NCBI GenBank assembly: GCA_029932675.1
Contig: JAOZPP010000004.1
Span: 17,367-81,366 of the forward strand
Direction of reading: 5' to 3'
Length of the DNA: 64,000 bases
Source of the DNA: a bacterium
GTDB taxonomy: Bacteria > SM23-81 > DAOVCL01
Below are positions 4,460 to 12,844 of this stretch, in pieces; the first letter of the stretch is position 1; each line of letters starts with the position of its first letter. Below the pieces are notes generated by a model. It was not told the DNA's origin. It saw only the letters and a program-made list of their open reading frames with translations, and made no database searches. The position numbers and the translations under genes are program-made.

Positions 4460-4488
4460 TTGACAGCAAATGGTGTTAATGTTATATT
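4460..4488 (+). promoter_or_regulatory. Sigma70 promoter of the exported peptide gene
   Basis: Perfect TTGACA (4460-4465), 17-base spacer, TATATT (4483-4488). Predicted start near 4495, 40 bases before the ATG at 4536. It should drive both the peptide and the sigma54 activator behind it. Confidence 0.75.
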
Positions 4489-4535: not shown

Positions 4536-4877
4536 ATGAAAAAATTCGGTATTATCTTGTTGATCATAGCCTTTCTTCTTTCTACAAATAGTTTTCTGCT
4601 GATGAAGAGGGTCTCTGCTAACACTGGGGAGGAGAGACCTATGCTTATGGCCGCCTGGCCATGGGATTTTTATTACCATAACCCCAAGGGGTCCAACCAC
4701 AATTCTGGCTCTTCGACTATTCAGAATCCAGCCGAAAATCAAAAGACTCCCCAGCAATCCGCAGGGACAACCATCCAATTTCAGGAGAGCAACAAACCAA
4801 AGAACTCTCCTACAGAGAGAAACCTCCGGAGTTGGCTCCTTAAAATTTCCCTCTTTCTGAGAATACTCCTCCACTAA
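4536..4877 (+). CDS. Small exported protein or pro-peptide, unknown family
   Basis: A 113-aa protein with a clear signal peptide: basic MKK, hydrophobic FGIILLIIAFLLS, then a possible signal peptidase site after VSA (about residue 29). The mature part is polar, rich in Asn, Gln, Ser and Pro with a conspicuous WPWDFYYHNP patch (about 42-51), and ends in a hydrophobic, basic amphipathic stretch (LRSWLLKISLFLRILLH). No Cys and no known domain. A GAGG-type ribosome site precedes the ATG, and a strong promoter lies at 4460-4488. It ends 10 bases before the TPR-sigma54 activator, so the two are surely co-transcribed. By analogy with receptor/pro-peptide pairs it could be the source of a signal sensed by the TPR domain; that is inference. 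Confidence 0.7.
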   Translation: MKKFGIILLIIAFLLSTNSFLLMKRVSANTGEERPMLMAAWPWDFYYHNPKGSNHNSGSSTIQNPAENQKTPQQSAGTTIQFQESNKPKNSPTERNLRSWLLKISLFLRILLH

Positions 4878-4886
4878 GGGCCGGAG

Positions 4887-7769
4887 ATGACAAAGCAACG
4901 GGTAAGAAAAATGGGAGGGTTAAAGGATTCGATTGAGGAGATAGATAAGCTGCTTCTTCCGGGTGGGGACTTGAAATTGGCCGAGGAGAGGGTTGAGATA
5001 GCTCTAAAGGTTCTCTCTCCCTCCCATAGTGAGCTGGAGAGGGCGAGGGTCTATTCTTTGGCTGCGCGGGTCAAGTTGGAGCTGGGGAAAAATTACGAGG
5101 AGGCTGAAGGATATGCCCTCAAAGCTTTTGATCTATTGAAAAATACGGCCCTGCACCAAGAAAGGGGGGAAGTCCAATTCTGTTTGGGGCGAATATATGT
5201 GTCTTTAGGGAGTTTAGAAAAAGCCCGCTGTTTCTTCGAGGACTCCTTGAGTACCTACCGGTTAATCGGGGATGCTGATGGAATGCTTGACGCCATCAAC
5301 GGGTTATCCCATGTCAGTTTTATCCTTTCCGAGAAAGATGAAGCGATCAAACGATTGGAATATGGATTAGCAGAGAGCAAGAAGGTCGATGACTCACGCA
5401 GGATAGCGCTATTCTCAGGCAATTTAGGCGTGGTGTATTTACTCGCTTCCCGGTGGCAAGAGGCGGAGGAGAAGTTAAATTTTGGATTAAAAATCTATGA
5501 ATCTATGGGTGATATTTTACAGATAGCCCGCCGGAGTATCAGCCTTGCCCGCTTGTACCTGATGAAGCATCGATGGTTGGAAGCTTCTCAGCTTATCCAG
5601 AAGGCAAAGGAGACGAGCCTAGAGTATAACTTACCCCGTGAGTTGGCGATGAGCCTGGAGAGTGAAGGCCAGTTATACTTTAAGCGAAAGGAGTATGCCA
5701 AAGCCGAGAAGAGCTATCTAAAAGCCTTAAAAATAGGGGAACGGATATCCCCTGAGGGGGACATCGTCTCAGAGGTTTCTCGCAAGTTAGCTGATTTGTA
5801 TGTAGCTATCAAGGAGTTTGATAAGGCTATTGAATATGGCCAAAGGGCTCTGGAGGTCTCCACCAAGCTGGGGGACAGATTTGAGCAAGGCTGTTGTCAT
5901 CGGGCCTTAGCTGTGGCGTATCATTTAAAGGGGTTAAGGGATAGATCCCAGGAGGAGTTTGCTAAAGCTATCTCCATTTTACGCTCCATAGGGGACAGGT
6001 TTGAGTTGGCGCATACTCTTTTAGCTCATGGGGAGCTTAGCGGCAAGCTTGAGCTCTTGCAGGAAGCCCAGAGGCTCTTTGCTCAGATCCAGGGGGCAGA
6101 GTTTTATCAGGCTTTGGCCCTGCTCCAGATTGCTAAGTTGGAGCCATCCTACAAGAAAGCGGTTGAAGTCTTAACGGAGGCGGAGAAGCTGCTGCAGGGC
6201 AAGGGAGAGACGGAGAAGCTCAAGGAGGTAGAAACCCTAAAACTTGAACTTAACCAAAGGCTGAAGAGGTTTCCCTCCAGGAAGTATGAGTTTTTACAAG
6301 GATTGCCATCAGGTGATTTGGGGAAGGTTTTTGGCCAGGTGATTGAGGTTTTGGGAGCCGACAGGGGGTTTGTGGCCTACGCTGCAGATGGAGATAAGAA
6401 GATGATGGTAGGGGCAAGCCATAACCTTGGGGAGGGGGAGGTCAAGGGGCTTCTCTCCCTGTTGGCAGACAGGCCTGCCTGTGCAGACAGGGATGGCTTT
6501 GAGGTGGGCAGTCCCTTTATCCTCTATGATAGCTCCCTGGATGAGCGGTTCTTCGCTGTGGGGGCTGGTAGCCTGATGTTGATCCCCTATGGGAATGGGG
6601 AGAGGATAGAGGGTTACCTCTATGTGGATCGGGGTAAGGGGAAGGAACCTTTCTTGGATAAGGAGCTTGACCTCTTCTATCTTCTCTCCGAGAGGGTAGC
6701 CAAGGCGATAGCCGAGCAGAGGCAGAGGGAGTTGGAGGAAGAGTTGGCCTCCCTGAAGAGACAGCTCAGGCTCTCTGGGGAGATAGTCACCCAGGACCCC
6801 CAGATGCTCAGGGTATTGGATGAGGTGGAGAGGATCAAAGATACAGACTATCCGATTGTAATTGAGGGGGAGACTGGCACAGGGAAAGAGGTAATAGCCA
6901 AGTTCATCCATTCCATTGGGGCGCGGAAGGAGATGCCCTTTATGGCCATAAATTGTGCCAATATGTCTGACAACCTCTTGGAGTCGGAGCTTTTTGGCTA
7001 TGAGAAGGGTGCCTTCACCGATGCCAGGACCCAACACAAGGGGTTGTTTGAGGTAGCCGATGGGGGGACGGTATTTCTGGATGAGATAGGGGATATGAGC
7101 CCTGCTATGCAGTCAAAGCTCCTTCGTTTTCTGGAGACCCAGAGCTTTCGCAGGGTAGGGGGGACAGAGGAGGTCAAGGTGGATGTGCGGGTGATAGTGG
7201 CCACCAACAAGGATCTCCACCGGGCTATGGTGGAGGGTTCTTTTCGGAATGATCTTTACTATCGGATAGAGGGGGTAACTTTGAGGCTTCCGCCATTGAG
7301 GGAGAGGAAGGGTGACATACCGCTTCTCTGTGAGCATTTTATGGAGCTGTTTGGGGAGAAGTATAAAAAGAGGGTGGTGGGTATTACTCCTGGTGCTTTA
7401 GAGGGGTTGATGGAATACGACTGGCCAGGGAATGTCAGGGAGTTGAAGCGGGCCATTGAGGTAGCAGTAAGCCATATAAAGGGCGAGGAAGGGGAGATCA
7501 CTGCAGAGCTGCTACGGGTGGGAGTTCTCCCGAAGGAACCCCAGGCTCTTTCAGAGGGAATAGCTTCTCTTCCGGAGAAATTGGCCTTTGTTGAGAGGGA
7601 GGAGTGTTTAAGGGCATTGAGAGAGAGCAATTGGAAGATTGCTAAGGCAGCAAGTATGTTAGGAGTTCCGCGCACTACCTTACACAACAAGATGAAAAAG
7701 CTTAATATCTCACCGACGAAAGTCAGTGAGGATTCCAATCTGGAAAGTCATCCAAATTTGGTCAGATAG
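4887..7769 (+). CDS. Sigma54-dependent activator with TPR and GAF sensor domains
   Basis: A 960-aa enhancer-binding protein. About residues 20-450 form TPR repeats (many YxxAExxYxxALxI units); about 465-610 look like a GAF domain; about 610-640 a coiled coil; about 640-870 the AAA+ core with Walker A GETGTGKE (about 660), the sigma54-contact loop written GAFTDA instead of GAFTGA (about 708), and Walker B GGTVFLDEIGDM (about 725-735); about 905-945 a Fis-type helix-turn-helix (NWKIAKAASMLGVPRTTLHN). There is no receiver domain, so activity is probably set by ligand or protein binding to TPR or GAF rather than by a histidine kinase. The ATG used has GGAG immediately before it; ATG 4908 is an alternative. 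It follows the exported peptide gene by 10 bases. A matching sigma54 promoter lies downstream at 8230. A strong terminator ends the unit at 7924. Confidence 0.92.
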   Translation: MTKQRVRKMGGLKDSIEEIDKLLLPGGDLKLAEERVEIALKVLSPSHSELERARVYSLAARVKLELGKNYEEAEGYALKAFDLLKNTALHQERGEVQFCLGRIYVSLGSLEKARCFFEDSLSTYRLIGDADGMLDAINGLSHVSFILSEKDEAIKRLEYGLAESKKVDDSRRIALFSGNLGVVYLLASRWQEAEEKLNFGLKIYESMGDILQIARRSISLARLYLMKHRWLEASQLIQKAKETSLEYNLPRELAMSLESEGQLYFKRKEYAKAEKSYLKALKIGERISPEGDIVSEVSRKLADLYVAIKEFDKAIEYGQRALEVSTKLGDRFEQGCCHRALAVAYHLKGLRDRSQEEFAKAISILRSIGDRFELAHTLLAHGELSGKLELLQEAQRLFAQIQGAEFYQALALLQIAKLEPSYKKAVEVLTEAEKLLQGKGETEKLKEVETLKLELNQRLKRFPSRKYEFLQGLPSGDLGKVFGQVIEVLGADRGFVAYAADGDKKMMVGASHNLGEGEVKGLLSLLADRPACADRDGFEVGSPFILYDSSLDERFFAVGAGSLMLIPYGNGERIEGYLYVDRGKGKEPFLDKELDLFYLLSERVAKAIAEQRQRELEEELASLKRQLRLSGEIVTQDPQMLRVLDEVERIKDTDYPIVIEGETGTGKEVIAKFIHSIGARKEMPFMAINCANMSDNLLESELFGYEKGAFTDARTQHKGLFEVADGGTVFLDEIGDMSPAMQSKLLRFLETQSFRRVGGTEEVKVDVRVIVATNKDLHRAMVEGSFRNDLYYRIEGVTLRLPPLRERKGDIPLLCEHFMELFGEKYKKRVVGITPGALEGLMEYDWPGNVRELKRAIEVAVSHIKGEEGEITAELLRVGVLPKEPQALSEGIASLPEKLAFVEREECLRALRESNWKIAKAASMLGVPRTTLHNKMKKLNISPTKVSEDSNLESHPNLVR

Positions 7770-7923
7770 CGTCCTTTATTGGTCGCTTTTAACTTCTTGT
7801 TCTATAAACAGATATTCAGTTGGCCCCAAAATATGTGTCCAAAAATGGACGAATAGCCTTTTGTTCTAACAAGGGCTGATGCAATTATTCTTCTCACAAA
7901 TTGGATATTTCTTTGTTTTTTTA

Positions 7924-7958
7924 AGCACTTAGTTAACTAAGTGCTCTTTTATTTTTTT
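7924..7958. terminator. Intrinsic terminator, probably bidirectional
   Basis: Perfect palindrome 7924-7945 (arms AGCACTTAG / CTAAGTGCT) followed by a T-rich run to 7958 and preceded by GTTTTTTT on the same strand. It closes the peptide-activator transcript. The gene-free stretch 7770-8358 also holds two palindromes (8083, 8166), the sigma54 promoter (8230) and the folded leader (8271); I see no other gene in it. Confidence 0.85.
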
Positions 7959-8082
7959 CTGCCCATTCTGGCATGCTTTTTGCTTTATATCTGAATGTCT
8001 CCACTTGTCCGGGGCTTGGGCGAGCAGGGGAAGCCGGTGCTGCCTTCTTTGGTGGTTGGAGGCAGCATTTGGGAAAGATTGA

Positions 8083-8108
8083 GGTGTCAGAACGCCTGTT
8101 CTGACACC
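8083..8108. repeat. Dispersed palindrome (hairpin)
   Basis: Perfect 11-bp arms GGTGTCAGAAC / GTTCTGACACC, 4-nt loop GCCT. Same family as 4266 and 8166. Confidence 0.65.
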
Positions 8109-8165
8109 AAAATAGCGGAGATACCCGTAGGCTTCCTCCTGCCTGCCCCTCCGATCATATAATGA

Positions 8166-8358: not shown

Positions 8359-8535
8359 ATGGTTGACTTTGAACCAGAAAACCCCTTAGATTCTGAGGAA
8401 GAAAAAGAATGCGAAACTGGTAATCTAAAAGGGAATTTGCTGATAAAGACAATAAGAAGAATAGGGAGGTTTGTTAAAGCCTTTTTCTCCGAAGAGGATG
8501 AGAAATATTGGAGAAGAGACCTTGACGGATTGTGA
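8359..8535 (+). CDS. 58-aa small acidic protein, unknown
   Basis: Small gene with an AGGAG ribosome site (8351-8355) close before ATG. The 58-aa product has an acidic N-terminus (VDFEPENPLDSEEEKE), a basic amphipathic middle (LLIKTIRRIGRFVKAFF) and an acidic tail (SEEDEKYWRRDLDGL). No signal peptide. I do not recognise a family. It is the first gene after the candidate sigma54 promoter and folded leader and lies 69 bases before the beta-propeller gene, so the pair may form an operon controlled by the upstream activator. The cationic middle segment would suit membrane or peptide interaction; that is speculation. Confidence 0.55.
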   Translation: MVDFEPENPLDSEEEKECETGNLKGNLLIKTIRRIGRFVKAFFSEEDEKYWRRDLDGL

Positions 8536-8604: not shown

Positions 8605-11091
8605 GTGAAAGGTAAGAGGGTGAAAATCACAATTTTATTTGTCTTCATTTTGCTTATTTGTAATGCGGTAACAACTAAAGGACAGTGGTTGGAAACTACT
8701 ATCCTTCTACCGGATAGCACAGGTGGGGTGCTTGAACCAGATTGTTTCGCTTACAACTCCACTGATAACAAAGTCTATGTCGGGGGGAGATATGGCGATC
8801 GTGTCGCTGTTATTGATGGAGCTACTGATCAAAAAATAGCAAGCATATCCGTGGGAGATGGCCCCAGCACCTTACTTTGGAACGCCAATAGTAACAAACT
8901 TTACTGTGCAAATGCAGGCAGTGGCAGAGTTACCATCATCGATGGAGAAACGGACAAAGTGATAACTTCTGTCTTAGTTGGCGACAATCCAACTGCCTTG
9001 GTTCATAATTCAATTGACAATAAGGTTTACTGTGCAAATTACAATAGTAATGATATAACTATCATCGATGGGGACGCTGATAGTGTTATCCTCACCATTC
9101 AAGTGGGAGACAATCCAACTGCTTTAGCTTATGACTTGACTGACAACAAGATCTATTGCGCTAACCAGGGGGATAACAACGTGACAGCCATTGATGGGGA
9201 GGCTGATAGCATCATCTCCGTAACCCCTGTGGGAGCCAGCCCTGTTGCCTTGATTTGGCATCCTTCCGATAACAAAATATACTCTGCAAATTACGGGAGT
9301 AATAGTGTAACGGTCATTTCGGGGGAGAATGACAGTATTATCGCTACAGTTCACGTAGGTAACGGTCCCCGTGCTTTAGTTTGGAGTCAAACCAGCAATA
9401 AAATCTACTGCGCCAACTTTTATGGTCGGAACATAGCCGTTATCTCTGGGACAACCGATAGCCTCATTACCACCATCCCAACATGGCAATTCCCTTGTGC
9501 CCTATCATGGAACCAAATCGATGATAAAATCTACTGTGCAAATGCAATGAGCCTTGTAGTTACAATTGTCTGTGGAATATCCGATACCGTTATTGCCAAC
9601 GTTTCGGTAGGTGGAGATCCCCATGCCCTAATCTGGAATCCAGTTGATAACAAAGTCTACTCTGCAAATGTGGGCAGTTACGATGTAGCAATTATTGACG
9701 GCGTGGCCGATAGCGTTATTACTGCTGTCCCCGTTGCCTACACTCCCAAAGCTCTAATCTGGAATCAAATCGACAACAAGGTCTATTCTGCAAATTACTG
9801 GAGCGACAACTTAACAATTATTAACGGAGCAACAAACAGAATCATCGCTACCCTCCCCGTGGGGGACGGCCCTCGCACATTGACCTGGAACCCAATCGAT
9901 GACAAAGTGTATTGTGCAAATTATTGGAGTAATGATATAACGGTAATTTCTGGTGAATCCAATGAGGTTATTACCACCATTTCGGTTGGGGACAAACCTA
10001 TCGCCCTTGTTTACGATTCAATTGACAACGAAATATACTGTGCAAACGAAAGAAGCGGGGATGTAACTGTAATAGACGGGGCCGCCGACAGCGTTATTGC
10101 CACCGTCCTTGTAGGAACCGGCCCCTCCGCTTTGCTCTGGGCATCAACCACCAATAAGATATACTGTGCAAACTGGGGAGTTGGTGAACCCAGTGAGGTA
10201 ACCGTAATCAACGGGGGGAATAATAGTGTCATTGCAAATGTCCCCGTTGGAGTCTTTCCCATCGCTCTGGCATGGAACAAAACTGAAAACAAAATCTACT
10301 GCGCAGATTACTGGGGCGGAGTGGATGTTATAGATGGGAAGGGGGATAGCGTCATCACCGTTATATCAGCCATGACTCTGGAATATCCCACTGCCTTAGT
10401 CTGGAATCAAACCGACGATAAGGTTTATTGTACATCCACTTTAGGAGATAAAGAACACCATGGCGATGAAAATATAGATGGGGAATGGGTAGTAGTCATT
10501 GATGGAGAGAGTGACAGCGTCATCACTACGGTTACCGTTGGAACATTTCCTTCCGCTCTGTTTTGGAACTCGATCAATAATAAGGTCTACTGCGTGAATT
10601 CGGGCAGTGGTGAATTCGGCGATGTAACAGTCATTGATGGGAAGGTAGATAGCGTCATCACTACAATCAAGGTGGGGAAGGGTGCCTCAGATTTGGCCTG
10701 GAACTCTCTCCAGAACAGAGCTTACGTCGCTAACTTTCTCGGAAGCAGCATTTCGGTAATTAGAGACCGCAAAAACGGCATTCCCGAGGAGCCATCGAAG
10801 AACCATTTGCCGGTTGCGTTCTCTCTCTTTCAGAACTATCCGAATCCATTTAACTCCACTACAGCTATCGGGTATCAGTTATCAAGATACTCTTTTATTA
10901 CTCTAAAGATTTACAACATCCTAGGTCAGGAGGTAAAGACGCTAGTTGATGCTGAAAAGAACCCCGGTAGCTATCATGTTTGCTGGGATGGCACCGATGA
11001 CTGTGGCAGGCCAGCGGCGAGTGGGGTATACCTTTATCAAATTAGGGTAGGAACTAACAGCAAAACCAAGAAGTTGGTTCTCCTCAGATAA
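8605..11091 (+). CDS. Secreted YVTN-type beta-propeller protein with T9SS sorting domain
   Basis: An 828-aa exported surface protein. The signal peptide (KITILFVFILLICNAV) is followed by about 16 repeats of about 43 residues with the core D-N-K-(V/I)-Y-C-A-N...VTVIDG..DSVI..V.VG..P.AL.WN, the YVTN/LVIVD-like propeller pattern; this is enough for two propellers of 7-8 blades. The last 85 residues are a T9SS type A sorting domain (NYPNPFN, then KIYNILGQEVKTL and SGVYLYQI). So it is probably secreted by T9SS and anchored to or released from the surface; its ligand is unknown. The DNA repeats are diverged but recognisable. The listed start is GTG; a second in-frame GTG at 8620 gives an equally good signal peptide. 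It lies behind the 58-aa gene and ahead of another T9SS substrate at 11243. Confidence 0.9.
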   Translation: MKGKRVKITILFVFILLICNAVTTKGQWLETTILLPDSTGGVLEPDCFAYNSTDNKVYVGGRYGDRVAVIDGATDQKIASISVGDGPSTLLWNANSNKLYCANAGSGRVTIIDGETDKVITSVLVGDNPTALVHNSIDNKVYCANYNSNDITIIDGDADSVILTIQVGDNPTALAYDLTDNKIYCANQGDNNVTAIDGEADSIISVTPVGASPVALIWHPSDNKIYSANYGSNSVTVISGENDSIIATVHVGNGPRALVWSQTSNKIYCANFYGRNIAVISGTTDSLITTIPTWQFPCALSWNQIDDKIYCANAMSLVVTIVCGISDTVIANVSVGGDPHALIWNPVDNKVYSANVGSYDVAIIDGVADSVITAVPVAYTPKALIWNQIDNKVYSANYWSDNLTIINGATNRIIATLPVGDGPRTLTWNPIDDKVYCANYWSNDITVISGESNEVITTISVGDKPIALVYDSIDNEIYCANERSGDVTVIDGAADSVIATVLVGTGPSALLWASTTNKIYCANWGVGEPSEVTVINGGNNSVIANVPVGVFPIALAWNKTENKIYCADYWGGVDVIDGKGDSVITVISAMTLEYPTALVWNQTDDKVYCTSTLGDKEHHGDENIDGEWVVVIDGESDSVITTVTVGTFPSALFWNSINNKVYCVNSGSGEFGDVTVIDGKVDSVITTIKVGKGASDLAWNSLQNRAYVANFLGSSISVIRDRKNGIPEEPSKNHLPVAFSLFQNYPNPFNSTTAIGYQLSRYSFITLKIYNILGQEVKTLVDAEKNPGSYHVCWDGTDDCGRPAASGVYLYQIRVGTNSKTKKLVLLR

Positions 11092-11242: not shown

Positions 11243-12844
11243 ATGAGGAAAGTCATATTCATCCTAGCTTTTCTTTTGCTCTGGGGGAGTATAGCCTATA
11301 CACAGGTTGAAGAGGACTGTGTCCCGGGACAGGTTATTGTGAAGTTCCGTCATAACATCATCTCTCTTCCAGAGGGTAAAATTAAGGCTCCAATAGATAG
11401 CGTTGAGATTAACTCTACAGTGGTGCAGGCTCTTTGTGACAGCATCGATGTCCAGAGCTTCGAGAAAGTGTTCCCAGATGCAGTGCCCGAGGAAACTCCA
11501 GACCTTACTCAGATATTTCTCATCACATTTGGTCAGGGTGACCTCTTCATCAGTGTATATGAAGCTGTAGAAGCATTTGAAGCTTTATCTGATGTCATAT
11601 ATGCAGATCCTAATATTATAGGTGAGGAGGATGTAGTCAAGGGTCTTGAGCCCAATGACCCGCATTATGCTAATGGTGACCAATGGGCGCTGTATGACAC
11701 ACCCCAGGGCATTAATGCACCTGAAGGATGGGAGAAAGCAAATGATGAGGGCACTTTGGGTGAAGGTATTGTCATCGCTATCATCGAACAAGGAGTAGAT
11801 GTCAGTCATGAGGACTTATCAGCTCATGCTACAGGCGGAGAGAGTGGATACATAGGTTCACACGGGACAATAGTTGCCGGTGTGGCGGCAGCGGTGACAA
11901 ACAACTCTAAGGGAATAGCCGGAATGGGATGGAAGGCCAAATTCATGCCTTTTAAAAATGATTTGACCCTTGGGGGAATTGTGAAAGACATCAAAGCAGC
12001 CGCGGACGCAAATGCTGATGTGATAAATATGAGTTTCTCCTGCTATTCCAGCACAGGTGATACCCTTGAAACCCTTTGTGAAGCCTGTAAATACGCTTAC
12101 GGCAAGAATTCGATACTGGTCACGAGTGCAGGGAATAACCAGCACCCAATCCCTTACAATGCTTATCCTCAAGCCTACGGCGGAAAATTGGTGATCAGCG
12201 TGGGGGCAACGACCAACAGCAATCCGCCTAAACGAGCGGGGTGGTCAAATTACGGACCATGGTTAGATGTTATGGCTTCCGGAGAAAACATTTTCTCAAC
12301 AGTCCCTGGAAATAAGTATGGGAGTTACAGCGGCACCTCACTTTCCTGTCCTCTGACCGCAGGAGTTATTGCTTTAATGCGTTGCAAAAATATAGGTTAT
12401 ACGCTCCCACCAAATGAAGCCTGGGATGTGATCACCGGGACTGCCAGGGACATGGCTGTAGCAGGGCGGGATGACTCAACAGGATATGGATTGATCGATG
12501 CCAAGGCCGCCTTTGAGCACACCTGGGTCGGTGTTGAGGAGGAAGCTGAGAACGACACAAAACCTGTTCACTTTCACCTGTTCCAGAACAGTCCAAACCC
12601 ATTCAATCCAACAACTACGATTGATTATGACTTGCCTGAGGCCAGCCATATCAACCTTGTCATCTGCAATGTTATCGGGCAAAAGGTCAAAACGCTGGTG
12701 AATTCGTATCAAAAGGGAGGTCACCATTCTGCCCAATGGAATGGAAGAGACATGTCTGGCAACCTGGTTGGCAGTGGCATTTATTTCTACAGGATCAAAG
12801 CCGGAAACTTCAGTGAGACTAAGAGAATGTTACTGCTAAGGTAG
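11243..12844 (+). CDS. Secreted subtilisin-like (S8) protein with Asp-to-Glu active site and T9SS domain
   Basis: A 533-aa protein with a signal peptide (VIFILAFLLLWGSIAYTQ), an N-terminal prodomain-like part (PGQVIVKF onward, about 28-120), an S8 peptidase domain (about 150-420) and a T9SS type A sorting domain (NSPNPFNPTTTI to the end). The catalytic His (about 207, SHGTIVAG), oxyanion Asn (TSAGNN) and Ser (about 366, SGTSLSC) are present. The catalytic Asp of the D-(S/T)-G motif is replaced: the codons read IIEQGVD, placing Glu at about residue 182. The enzyme may be weak or inactive, or Glu may substitute. A GAGGGAGG ribosome site precedes ATG. It is followed by a clear terminator at 12869. 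It forms a secretion-linked pair with the propeller protein upstream. Confidence 0.9.
   Translation: MRKVIFILAFLLLWGSIAYTQVEEDCVPGQVIVKFRHNIISLPEGKIKAPIDSVEINSTVVQALCDSIDVQSFEKVFPDAVPEETPDLTQIFLITFGQGDLFISVYEAVEAFEALSDVIYADPNIIGEEDVVKGLEPNDPHYANGDQWALYDTPQGINAPEGWEKANDEGTLGEGIVIAIIEQGVDVSHEDLSAHATGGESGYIGSHGTIVAGVAAAVTNNSKGIAGMGWKAKFMPFKNDLTLGGIVKDIKAAADANADVINMSFSCYSSTGDTLETLCEACKYAYGKNSILVTSAGNNQHPIPYNAYPQAYGGKLVISVGATTNSNPPKRAGWSNYGPWLDVMASGENIFSTVPGNKYGSYSGTSLSCPLTAGVIALMRCKNIGYTLPPNEAWDVITGTARDMAVAGRDDSTGYGLIDAKAAFEHTWVGVEEEAENDTKPVHFHLFQNSPNPFNPTTTIDYDLPEASHINLVICNVIGQKVKTLVNSYQKGGHHSAQWNGRDMSGNLVGSGIYFYRIKAGNFSETKRMLLLR

Follow-up and report, generated by a model that had tools for sequence, protein, structure and literature searches.

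The window analysed here, a stretch of 64,000 nucleotides from the genome G000, contains two adjacent open reading frames, 4536–4877 and 4887–7769, which share the same strand and frame and are separated by 9 bases. The initial annotation had read them as an exported 113-aa protein of no known family lying 5' of a TPR-GAF-sigma54 activator, and both ORFs were confirmed. The features of the pair are as follows.

4460..4488, + strand: putative sigma70-type promoter for the pair, TTGACA-17-TATATT with extended -10 (scan match only)
4536..4877, + strand: gene of the small exported protein, 113 aa, ATG start
4536..4619, + strand: predicted Sec signal peptide, residues 1–28, AxA site VSA/NTG (from sequence; ANTG conserved in paralogues)
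4656..4667, + strand: xPWD motif W41-P42-W43-D44, proposed TPR ligand (paired alignment; fused AF2 model)
4827..4874, + strand: C-terminal amphipathic hydrophobic segment SWLLKISLFLRILLH, its character, not its sequence, kept in many relatives
4887..7769, + strand: gene of the TPR-GAF-AAA+(sigma54)-Fis HTH activator, 960 aa, ATG start (Pfam)
4923..6266, + strand: TPR superhelix, residues about 13–460 (AF2 helices; Pfam TPR_12, TPR_MalT)
5442..5444, + strand: putative groove residue L186, located in helix A of a TPR (K/R here with acidic x)
5550..5552, + strand: putative groove residue R222, in the TPR that follows (column covarying with x of xPW)
5661..5663, + strand: putative groove residue S259, one TPR further on (column covarying with x of xPW)
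6336..6710, + strand: GAF domain, residues 484–608 (Pfam PF01590)
6783..7541, + strand: sigma54-interacting AAA+ domain and lid, residues 633–885 (Pfam PF00158, PF25601)
7581..7703, + strand: Fis-type HTH, residues 899–939 (Pfam PF02954)

The 113-aa protein has a K-rich start followed by a long hydrophobic stretch and an AxA site, and the signal peptide thus called from hydropathy rules is followed by a variable Ser/Asn/Gln-rich middle and an amphipathic C-terminal segment. It matched no family in Pfam and none above cut-off in NCBIfam. The 960-aa activator showed Pfam matches to TPR, GAF, Sigma54_activat (1e-67) and HTH_8, and its Walker A sequence GETGTGKE, GAFTDA loop and Fis HTH identify it as a sigma54 activator (bacterial enhancer-binding protein), with an AAA+ part that matches NtrC1/ZraR-type structures. 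No receiver domain was found by Pfam, in agreement with the earlier reading. The TPR superhelix was modelled by AF2 with pLDDT of mostly 80–96, and the putative sigma70-type promoter matched 11 of the 12 consensus positions.

The genome of the window contains 13 such pairs including the one described here, each of the 12 small-protein paralogues lying directly 5' of an activator paralogue, and the second species of the genus (G001) has at least four. With these copies and analogues in several phyla, the 113-aa frame is conserved, as had been anticipated. By an automatic rule, a signal-peptide ORF of about 70–130 aa was detected directly 5' of 98/100 activators of this architecture from Zixibacteria and several other phyla, and both misses were artefacts, a small exported ORF being present in each on reading by eye. 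In the controls, an upstream exported ORF was seen for 12 of 137 other long ORFs and 2 of 22 ordinary sigma54 activators. The named records, mostly Zixibacterial, had the pairing in all 37 of 37 loci; they were found by a scan with an alignment of closer TPR sequences, and a scan of genome contigs with the small protein alone found no named relatives. The expectation that related genomes would carry the same pair was thus borne out, and wherever a related TPR-GAF-sigma54 gene had sufficient upstream DNA, a small exported neighbour was present. The two genes are tens of bases apart in the relatives, and the activators are mostly 930–1080 aa long. Because there are 13 paralogous pairs in one genome and the pairing reaches 98/100 against 12/137 in the controls, it is far beyond chance.

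The small proteins of the relatives have little in common except a short motif located about 1–17 residues from the signal peptide. It is of the xPW(D) type in the window genus and Zixibacteria and an acidic D-x-D elsewhere, its class tracks the activator clade, and xPWD is nearly constant across Zixibacterial genera. W43 was the sole invariant small-protein residue in a 15-row paired alignment. In a fused AF2 model, pLDDT rose above 50 outside the helices of the small protein only at residues 40–47. Of the two read-through fusions modelled separately by AF2, this one thus had a confident island exactly at AWPWDFYY and the other had one at EHPWDGE; column conservation alone raises pLDDT. The initial annotation had looked to the peptide C-terminus for covariation with the TPR groove. 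The C-termini showed no conservation among relatives, and the covariation was found instead at the xPW(D)/DxD motif behind the signal peptide.

The x of xPW covaried most strongly with the TPR column of window residue 222 (z=5.8) and next with that of 259 (z=4.8). At position 186, K or R was present in 11 of 13 pairs with acidic x and in 0 of 52 otherwise (Fisher 9e-11); this column was the best of all those tested for the acidic x-K/R pairing, with changes on several separate branches, and it carried K/R/H in 31/36 members of the acidic-motif clade. A His-Tyr to Tyr-His swap between motif and TPR was observed in two distant lineages. When 872 columns were ranked branch-wise, 222 came 3rd, 259 7th and 186 65th, with some non-TPR columns intermixed. 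The covariation of x with window residues L186, R222 and S259 strongly suggests that the motif binds the TPR groove as a ligand. Among the paralogues, the mature small protein follows the TPR (r=0.73) and not the AAA+ domain (r=0.03), which is exchanged between paralogues; this gradient was set aside as proof because physical linkage together with recombination would equally produce it. Two identical small proteins with different TPRs (C108 and C109) had been considered as counter-evidence on specificity, and they turned out to be consistent with the pairing, as both have x=W and do not differ at 186, 222 or 259.

The region downstream of the activator contains the following features.

7837..7850, + strand: candidate activator-binding palindrome GTCCAAAAATGGAC (inverted repeat)
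7924..7955 (about), + strand: predicted intrinsic terminator behind the activator (sequence scan)
7968..7986, + strand: sigma54 -24/-12 promoter CTGGCATGCTTTTTGCTTT, score 15/16
7991..8163, + strand: leader RNA, conserved and possibly structured, into which a palindromic repeat is inserted (alignment of 9 loci)
8359..8535, + strand: 58-aa charged non-exported ORF, MVDFEPENPL...LDGL (ORF comparison between loci)
8605..11091, + strand: secreted YVTN-type beta-propeller protein with sorting tail, likely output (Pfam YNCE, Por_Secre_tail)
11243..12844, + strand: secreted subtilase with sorting tail, likely output (Pfam Peptidase_S8, Por_Secre_tail)

Of the 15 loci with downstream DNA, 13 have a sigma54 site of score >=14 in the equivalent position and two have a weaker one, against a background of 0.01 per 250 bp. 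In the Zixibacteria loci no linked sigma54 promoter was seen. A near-identical palindrome, TGTCCAAAAGTGGACGA, lies upstream of the sigma54 site of C20 in G001, which has the HTH tail closest to that of the window activator, and the palindrome at 7837..7850 may therefore be regarded as a candidate binding site of the activator. The leader RNA had a mean column identity of 84% over the 9 loci and matched no Rfam family at gathering score, its weak matches (E 0.16–5) being taken as chance. On single-sequence folding the two C30-type RNAs did better than shuffled sequences (z -2.6 and -4.5) and one other member did not (z 0.18); a structure including a pseudoknot, with pairing segments in the order A-B-A'-B', is suggested. 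Leader-region ORFs of like size and composition to the 58-aa ORF were found in other loci, many of them ending in DPSDW, DGW or GDW. The C161 pair of G001 has a very similar YVTN-type beta-propeller protein downstream, and secreted proteases or repeat proteins follow most pair-linked sigma54 sites of the genus. These arrangements suggest that the pair controls its downstream genes, and in this genus secreted proteases, among them some of the C25 gingipain family, appear to be under its control.

The conserved pairing, the motif, its coevolution with the TPR and the sigma54 promoters are established by computation, and we consider it likely that the pair constitutes a two-gene signalling module in which the exported motif acts through the TPR groove on the sigma54 activator. 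The first gene would provide a Sec-exported small protein with the ligand motif W-P-W-D (41–44) just behind the signal peptide, and the second a cytoplasmic sigma54 activator that would take the motif into the concave groove of its N-terminal TPR superhelix, contacting it through helix-A residues L186, R222 and S259 of three successive TPRs. Motif binding would alter the state of the AAA+ ring, the sign of this effect being one that we infer, and the activator bound to its own palindrome would switch the sigma54 promoter at 7968 and thereby the secreted products (the beta-propeller protein and the subtilase).

The exported motif would reach the cytoplasmic receptor by re-import or by capture before export. 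Most likely, it would be trimmed to a peptide after export and re-enter the cell, plausibly via an OPT transporter; the main alternative within the same model is that the precursor is bound before export. No SBP_bac_5 (Opp/Dpp-type peptide-binding protein) was found in G000, G001 and G012, and it is present in G102, G275 and G197. An OPT transporter, which is unrelated to the Opp permease of RRNPP systems, was found in 20 of 21 pair-bearing genomes against 77 of 365 others (p=3e-12), an association confounded by phylogeny, as OPT also occurs in two genomes of the same phylum that lack the pair. A check for sigma54 control of the OPT gene showed no strong site in front of it. In one genome the OPT gene is directly 3' of such an activator.

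The pair shares with PspF-PspA a receiver-less sigma54 activator, which in that system is held by its partner protein via protein-protein contact. PspA is cytoplasmic or peripheral and binds the AAA+ domain, whereas the pair has an exported partner whose contact maps to the TPR repeats. The MalT/STAND regulators likewise have a TPR-type sensor able to integrate ligands and proteins (TPR_MalT matches are present in the window activator); to our knowledge, they have another motor and output and no exported partner gene. Within the window genome, the TPR-GAF-sigma54 part has a relative in a Ser/Thr kinase-TPR-GAF-sigma54 activator (C35, 1738 aa), which also has a sigma54 site downstream and differs by its kinase and AAA_16 domains. 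No small exported gene was found within about 220 bases upstream of C35, and an exported ORF of 80 aa follows its sigma54 site at a distance of 69 bases.

Among the regulators of the RRNPP/RRNPPA group (Rap, Rgg, NprR, PlcR, PrgX, ComR and AimR), the likeness lies in a small Sec-exported protein gene beside a cytoplasmic TPR regulator and in paralogue expansion. NprR and PlcR control secreted proteases, which the inferred outputs of the pair resemble. RRNPP systems are defined by adjacent genes for a Sec-exported propeptide of 10–100 aa and a receptor of 250–500 aa with TPR in its C-terminal part (PMC10075063). The adjacency (98/100 by rule) and the Sec export, predicted from hydropathy rules and AxA-type sites, are found here, whereas the small proteins of about 70–134 aa exceed the size range in part (113 aa in the window) and the receptors are twice as long, with the TPR at the N-terminus followed by GAF, AAA+ and HTH. 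In RRNPP systems the motif is at the propeptide C-terminus and the mature peptide, re-imported via Opp with SBP_bac_5, occupies the TPR groove; here the motif is near the signal peptide, the host is outside Firmicutes, and the corresponding evidence for the groove is motif-groove coevolution together with confident AF2 motif islands. By these defining features the pair is not RRNPP, and it may work like RRNPP.

The initial annotation had proposed peptide sensing of the RRNPP kind, of which an exported motif as TPR ligand is retained on the strength of the coevolution. True RRNPP-type quorum sensing, in which a pheromone private to a species or strain would be cleaved from the exported protein and imported by an oligopeptide permease as a density signal, would agree with the gene layout (PMC10075063) and with several paralogues differing in motif and groove. 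The receptors are outside the RRNPP definition, Opp/Dpp-type binding proteins are absent from the window genome, the evidence for re-import is the OPT association, and an xPWD nearly constant over Zixibacteria is a poor fit to a species-private pheromone; this part of the proposal is held to be unlikely. The same absence and constancy agree with an export checkpoint, in which unprocessed precursor binds the TPR in the cytoplasm until Sec export removes it, so that the activator reads translocation capacity or secretory load and tunes secreted-protein genes, re-import being unnecessary. The adjacent genes with gaps of tens of bases, which imply co-synthesis, the closeness of the motif to the signal peptide and the secreted outputs in the window genus also favour it. 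On its own such a checkpoint leaves unexplained both the OPT association and 13 parallel pairs with differing motif-groove codes in one genome, and we hold it possible though doubtful.

The exported leader directly 5' of a regulator at so short a distance also recalls SecM/MifM-like secretion arrest, in which slow export would stall translation of the small protein and control that of the activator in cis, with no peptide-TPR contact. This mechanism was rejected as hardly credible, since the small-protein C-termini, the seat of arrest motifs, are unconserved, whereas the motif near the mature N-terminus is conserved and coevolves with TPR residues. Only slightly more credible, and still very improbable, is a secreted effector travelling with its regulator as a co-operonic neighbour without direct contact; the amphipathic C-terminal segment is typical of membrane-active peptides and linkage could keep the pairing, but the 98/100 pairing over phyla, the invariant short motif and the charge and His-Tyr complementarity with TPR residues speak against it.

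For the two-gene module with the motif as TPR ligand, the open-access literature searched was found to describe neither a peptide-gated sigma54 activator nor, outside Firmicutes and their phages, a pairing of a TPR peptide receptor with its exported ligand. On balance, we favour the view that exported-peptide/TPR signalling evolved a second time, independently of RRNPP and without common descent, presumably in diderm hosts. In Zixibacteria, the phylum of the window and several others, small exported proteins of the xPWD and DxD types would then serve as dedicated ligands of TPR-GAF-sigma54 activators, a single cell having as many as 13 insulated channels, and the changing motif-groove code would be readable from sequence. 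If the pair works as proposed, such peptide signalling arose more than once and is present in poorly cultured phyla with essentially no exceptions in the sample, and a function can be assigned to a class of small exported proteins that fall into no known family. The motif-TPR code, with its acid-base pairing at window 186/222 and the His-Tyr swap, translates directly into testable point mutations.

Both frames of the window pair, the small exported protein and the sigma54 activator, were confirmed where the initial annotation had placed them, on the same strand and separated by 9 bases, and scanning added a promoter and a terminator around them:

4460-4488, sigma70-type promoter before the pair (scan)
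4536-4877, + strand, small exported protein of 113 aa
4887-7769, + strand, activator of 960 aa
7924-7945, intrinsic terminator after the pair (scan)

The 113-aa protein has no family match in Pfam or NCBIfam. The 960-aa protein has the architecture TPR-GAF-sigma54 AAA+-Fis HTH and, as first described, lacks a receiver domain; its PDB matches are sigma54 AAA+ structures.

When the window's own genome (97% complete) was searched with the small protein as query, it was found to belong to a paralogous family, and a profile search located such proteins at 13 places, all 13 directly upstream of an activator paralogue on the same strand. The one other genome of the genus examined (G001, a second species) contains at least four pairs. 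The small proteins of the genus have kept the signal peptide, whose predicted cleavage site mostly reads NTG (or NRP), as well as an A[EW]PW motif and an amphipathic C-terminal segment. The AAA+ and HTH parts have been swapped among the activator paralogues; the window activator (C109) and that of contig C98, for example, are 97% identical in AAA+ and 43% in TPR. Unlike these exchanged parts, the TPR part is tracked by the small protein, a gradient that physical linkage could be sufficient to produce. At the C108 and C109 loci (L073 and L088) the small proteins are identical across all 113 aa and the DNA is 98% identical over 586 bases, beyond which the activators diverge (61% overall), a pattern that points to recombination or gene conversion among the paralogues. 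In L079 (C98) and L055 (G001 C161) the activator lies in two frames, broken around the beginning of the AAA+ domain or around GAF, and these are either decayed paralogues or assembly errors. G401 (L141), which is classified in Zixibacteria and is 7% contaminated, contains a pair of the window-genus type, through contamination or transfer.

The initial annotation had proposed looking for the same pair in related genomes, and it was present in the genus, in Zixibacteria and in other phyla. Activators of the same architecture, 31–34% identical, occur in other families and phyla, and a small exported ORF precedes every one with enough upstream DNA. Where loci of named records included upstream DNA, the ORF was present in 37/37 and PW in 33/37. 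With all loci pooled, an automatic rule detected an upstream exported ORF for 98 of 100 activators of 850–1110 aa, and in the two misses (L012 and L223) the ORF was seen on reading by eye. The identical rule matched 12/137 other long ORFs and 4/24 shorter sigma54 ORFs, two of the latter four belonging to the activator family. Across phyla nothing is common to the small proteins beyond their position, their length, the signal peptide and a short motif, and the motif class agrees with the activator tree. Two phyla were studied in depth, one being Zixibacteria (Ca. Zixiibacteriota). In Zixibacteria and in the window's own phylum the motif is xPWD, x being the residue before PW (W41-P42-W43-D44 in the window); most other groups have D-x-D types (GDGDIPE, GGGDPDNPVP, DTDPDDFPI, VDPDGLEG). 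In L249 (6768-9591) an 809-aa TPR-sigma54 activator, apparently without GAF, also has an exported small ORF with GDPDVPDG upstream, and the pairing may therefore extend to GAF-less activators. In L085 (C35, 5772-6014) a kinase-TPR-GAF-sigma54 activator is followed by a sigma54 site, 69 bases further by an 80-aa exported ORF and then by a small Fis-like HTH ORF, which looks like a related circuit with the gene order reversed.

The mutual information of x with 805 activator columns was measured in 65 PW-type pairs, which are not independent owing to kinship among the sequences. It was highest for window residues 222 (z 5.8) and 259 (z 4.8), both in the TPR domain about one repeat apart, and residue 186, one repeat before 222, ranked third. 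By TPR numbering these three residues occupy helix-A positions 13, 9 and 6, which are of the groove-facing kind. K or R was found at 186 in 11 of 13 pairs with acidic x and in 0 of 52 with other x (Fisher 9e-11), placing column 186 first among all columns in this test; the remaining two acidic pairs have a basic residue at 222 instead. His in the motif accompanies Tyr222 and Tyr259, and Tyr in the motif goes with His222 in two distant lineages. Within the window's genus, EPW pairs have K/R/H186 and WPW pairs L/F186, and the acidic DxD clade has K/R/H at 186 in 31/36. The chemistry of x and the TPR residues is complementary. A branch-by-branch count over 872 columns ranked 222 third and 259 seventh, interspersed with some non-TPR columns, and placed 186 further down. 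The small gene and the activator share one frame, which allowed the two to be modelled together as a single read-through fusion. In the window model, built on a 15-row paired alignment, residues 40–47, AWPWDFYY, were the one part of the small protein that was both non-helical and confident, with flanks below 50, and in a zixibacterial model the same held for residues 30–36, EHPWDGE; conservation alone can raise pLDDT, and these models, read by their confidence values, serve as supporting evidence only. Judged from the sequences, direct contact of the motif with the TPR domain is very probable. The covariation with the TPR groove anticipated by the initial annotation was thus seen, at the residue before PW near the signal peptide and not at the peptide C-terminus.

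With the activator in the cytoplasm and the motif exported, two routes remain by which they could meet, re-import of the motif or its capture before export. We favour re-import, at roughly even chances. No OppA/DppA-type protein was found in the three genomes searched (the window's own, G001 and G012). A transporter of the OPT family, which is unrelated to Opp, was present in 5/5 pair-bearing genomes first checked, and subsequently in 20/21 pair-bearing genomes vs 77/365 others (p=3e-12), a comparison confounded by descent and in which an E cut-off decided where the pair counted as absent. An OPT gene begins 148 bases after an activator of the same family in G102. Capture by the activator before export, which we consider possible but less likely, requires no importer and agrees with both the adjacent genes and the location of the motif near the signal peptide.

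In its layout, the RRNPP-like circuit first suggested agrees with RRNPP in Sec export of the small protein, gene adjacency and a TPR receptor, and differs from RRNPP in receptor length, TPR position and the lack of Opp (PMC10075063, PMC9765709). The pair may function like RRNPP systems without belonging to them. No description of such a pair was found in the open-access literature, a coverage that takes in only a minor share of subscription journals and preprints.

Within the genus, the activator is directly followed by a strong sigma54 -24/-12 site. Scores of at least 14 of 16, against a background of 0.01 sites per 250 bases, were obtained for the window (7968-7986), C108, C18, C111, C9a, C46, C76, C98, C30, C9b and three G001 loci, with weaker sites in C104 (13) and C7 (11.5); no linked sigma54 site was found in the Zixibacteria pair loci. 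The site is followed by a conserved leader, after which the majority of loci encode secreted proteins, most of them with T9SS-like sorting tails. These include C25 gingipain-family peptidases (C111, C98, G001 C20), an M4 metallopeptidase (C104), a subtilase (the window), and beta-propeller, FG-GAP and beta-helix proteins. Two further window features lie in this region:

7991-8163, conserved leader directly after the sigma54 promoter (84% column identity)
8359-8535, charged non-exported ORF of a 50–60-aa family, also in L089, L092 and L094-L100

The leader has counterparts in the corresponding position in C108, C18, C9a, C46, C9b, C104, G001 C161 and G001 C20 and has no Rfam match. It contains long complementary segments in the order A-B-A'-B', and most copies also carry an inserted palindromic repeat; by eye, B-B' complementarity is kept in C9b and G001 C20. 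In C30 and G001 C115 the leader and secreted proteins are replaced by what looks like a sigma54-driven small RNA of ~125 nt with a terminator hairpin at its end (L082, about 9800-9950, and L087, about 5161-5290; fold z -2.6 and -4.5); the genes beyond it are unrelated. The 50–60-aa ORFs, mostly within leader regions downstream of sigma54 promoters, match no known family and have an amphipathic stretch, many ending in DPSDW, DGW or GDW. In C76, two more small exported ORFs ending CHGWGFTC(LFH/Y) (L078, 7068-7939) follow the sigma54 promoter that belongs to the pair.
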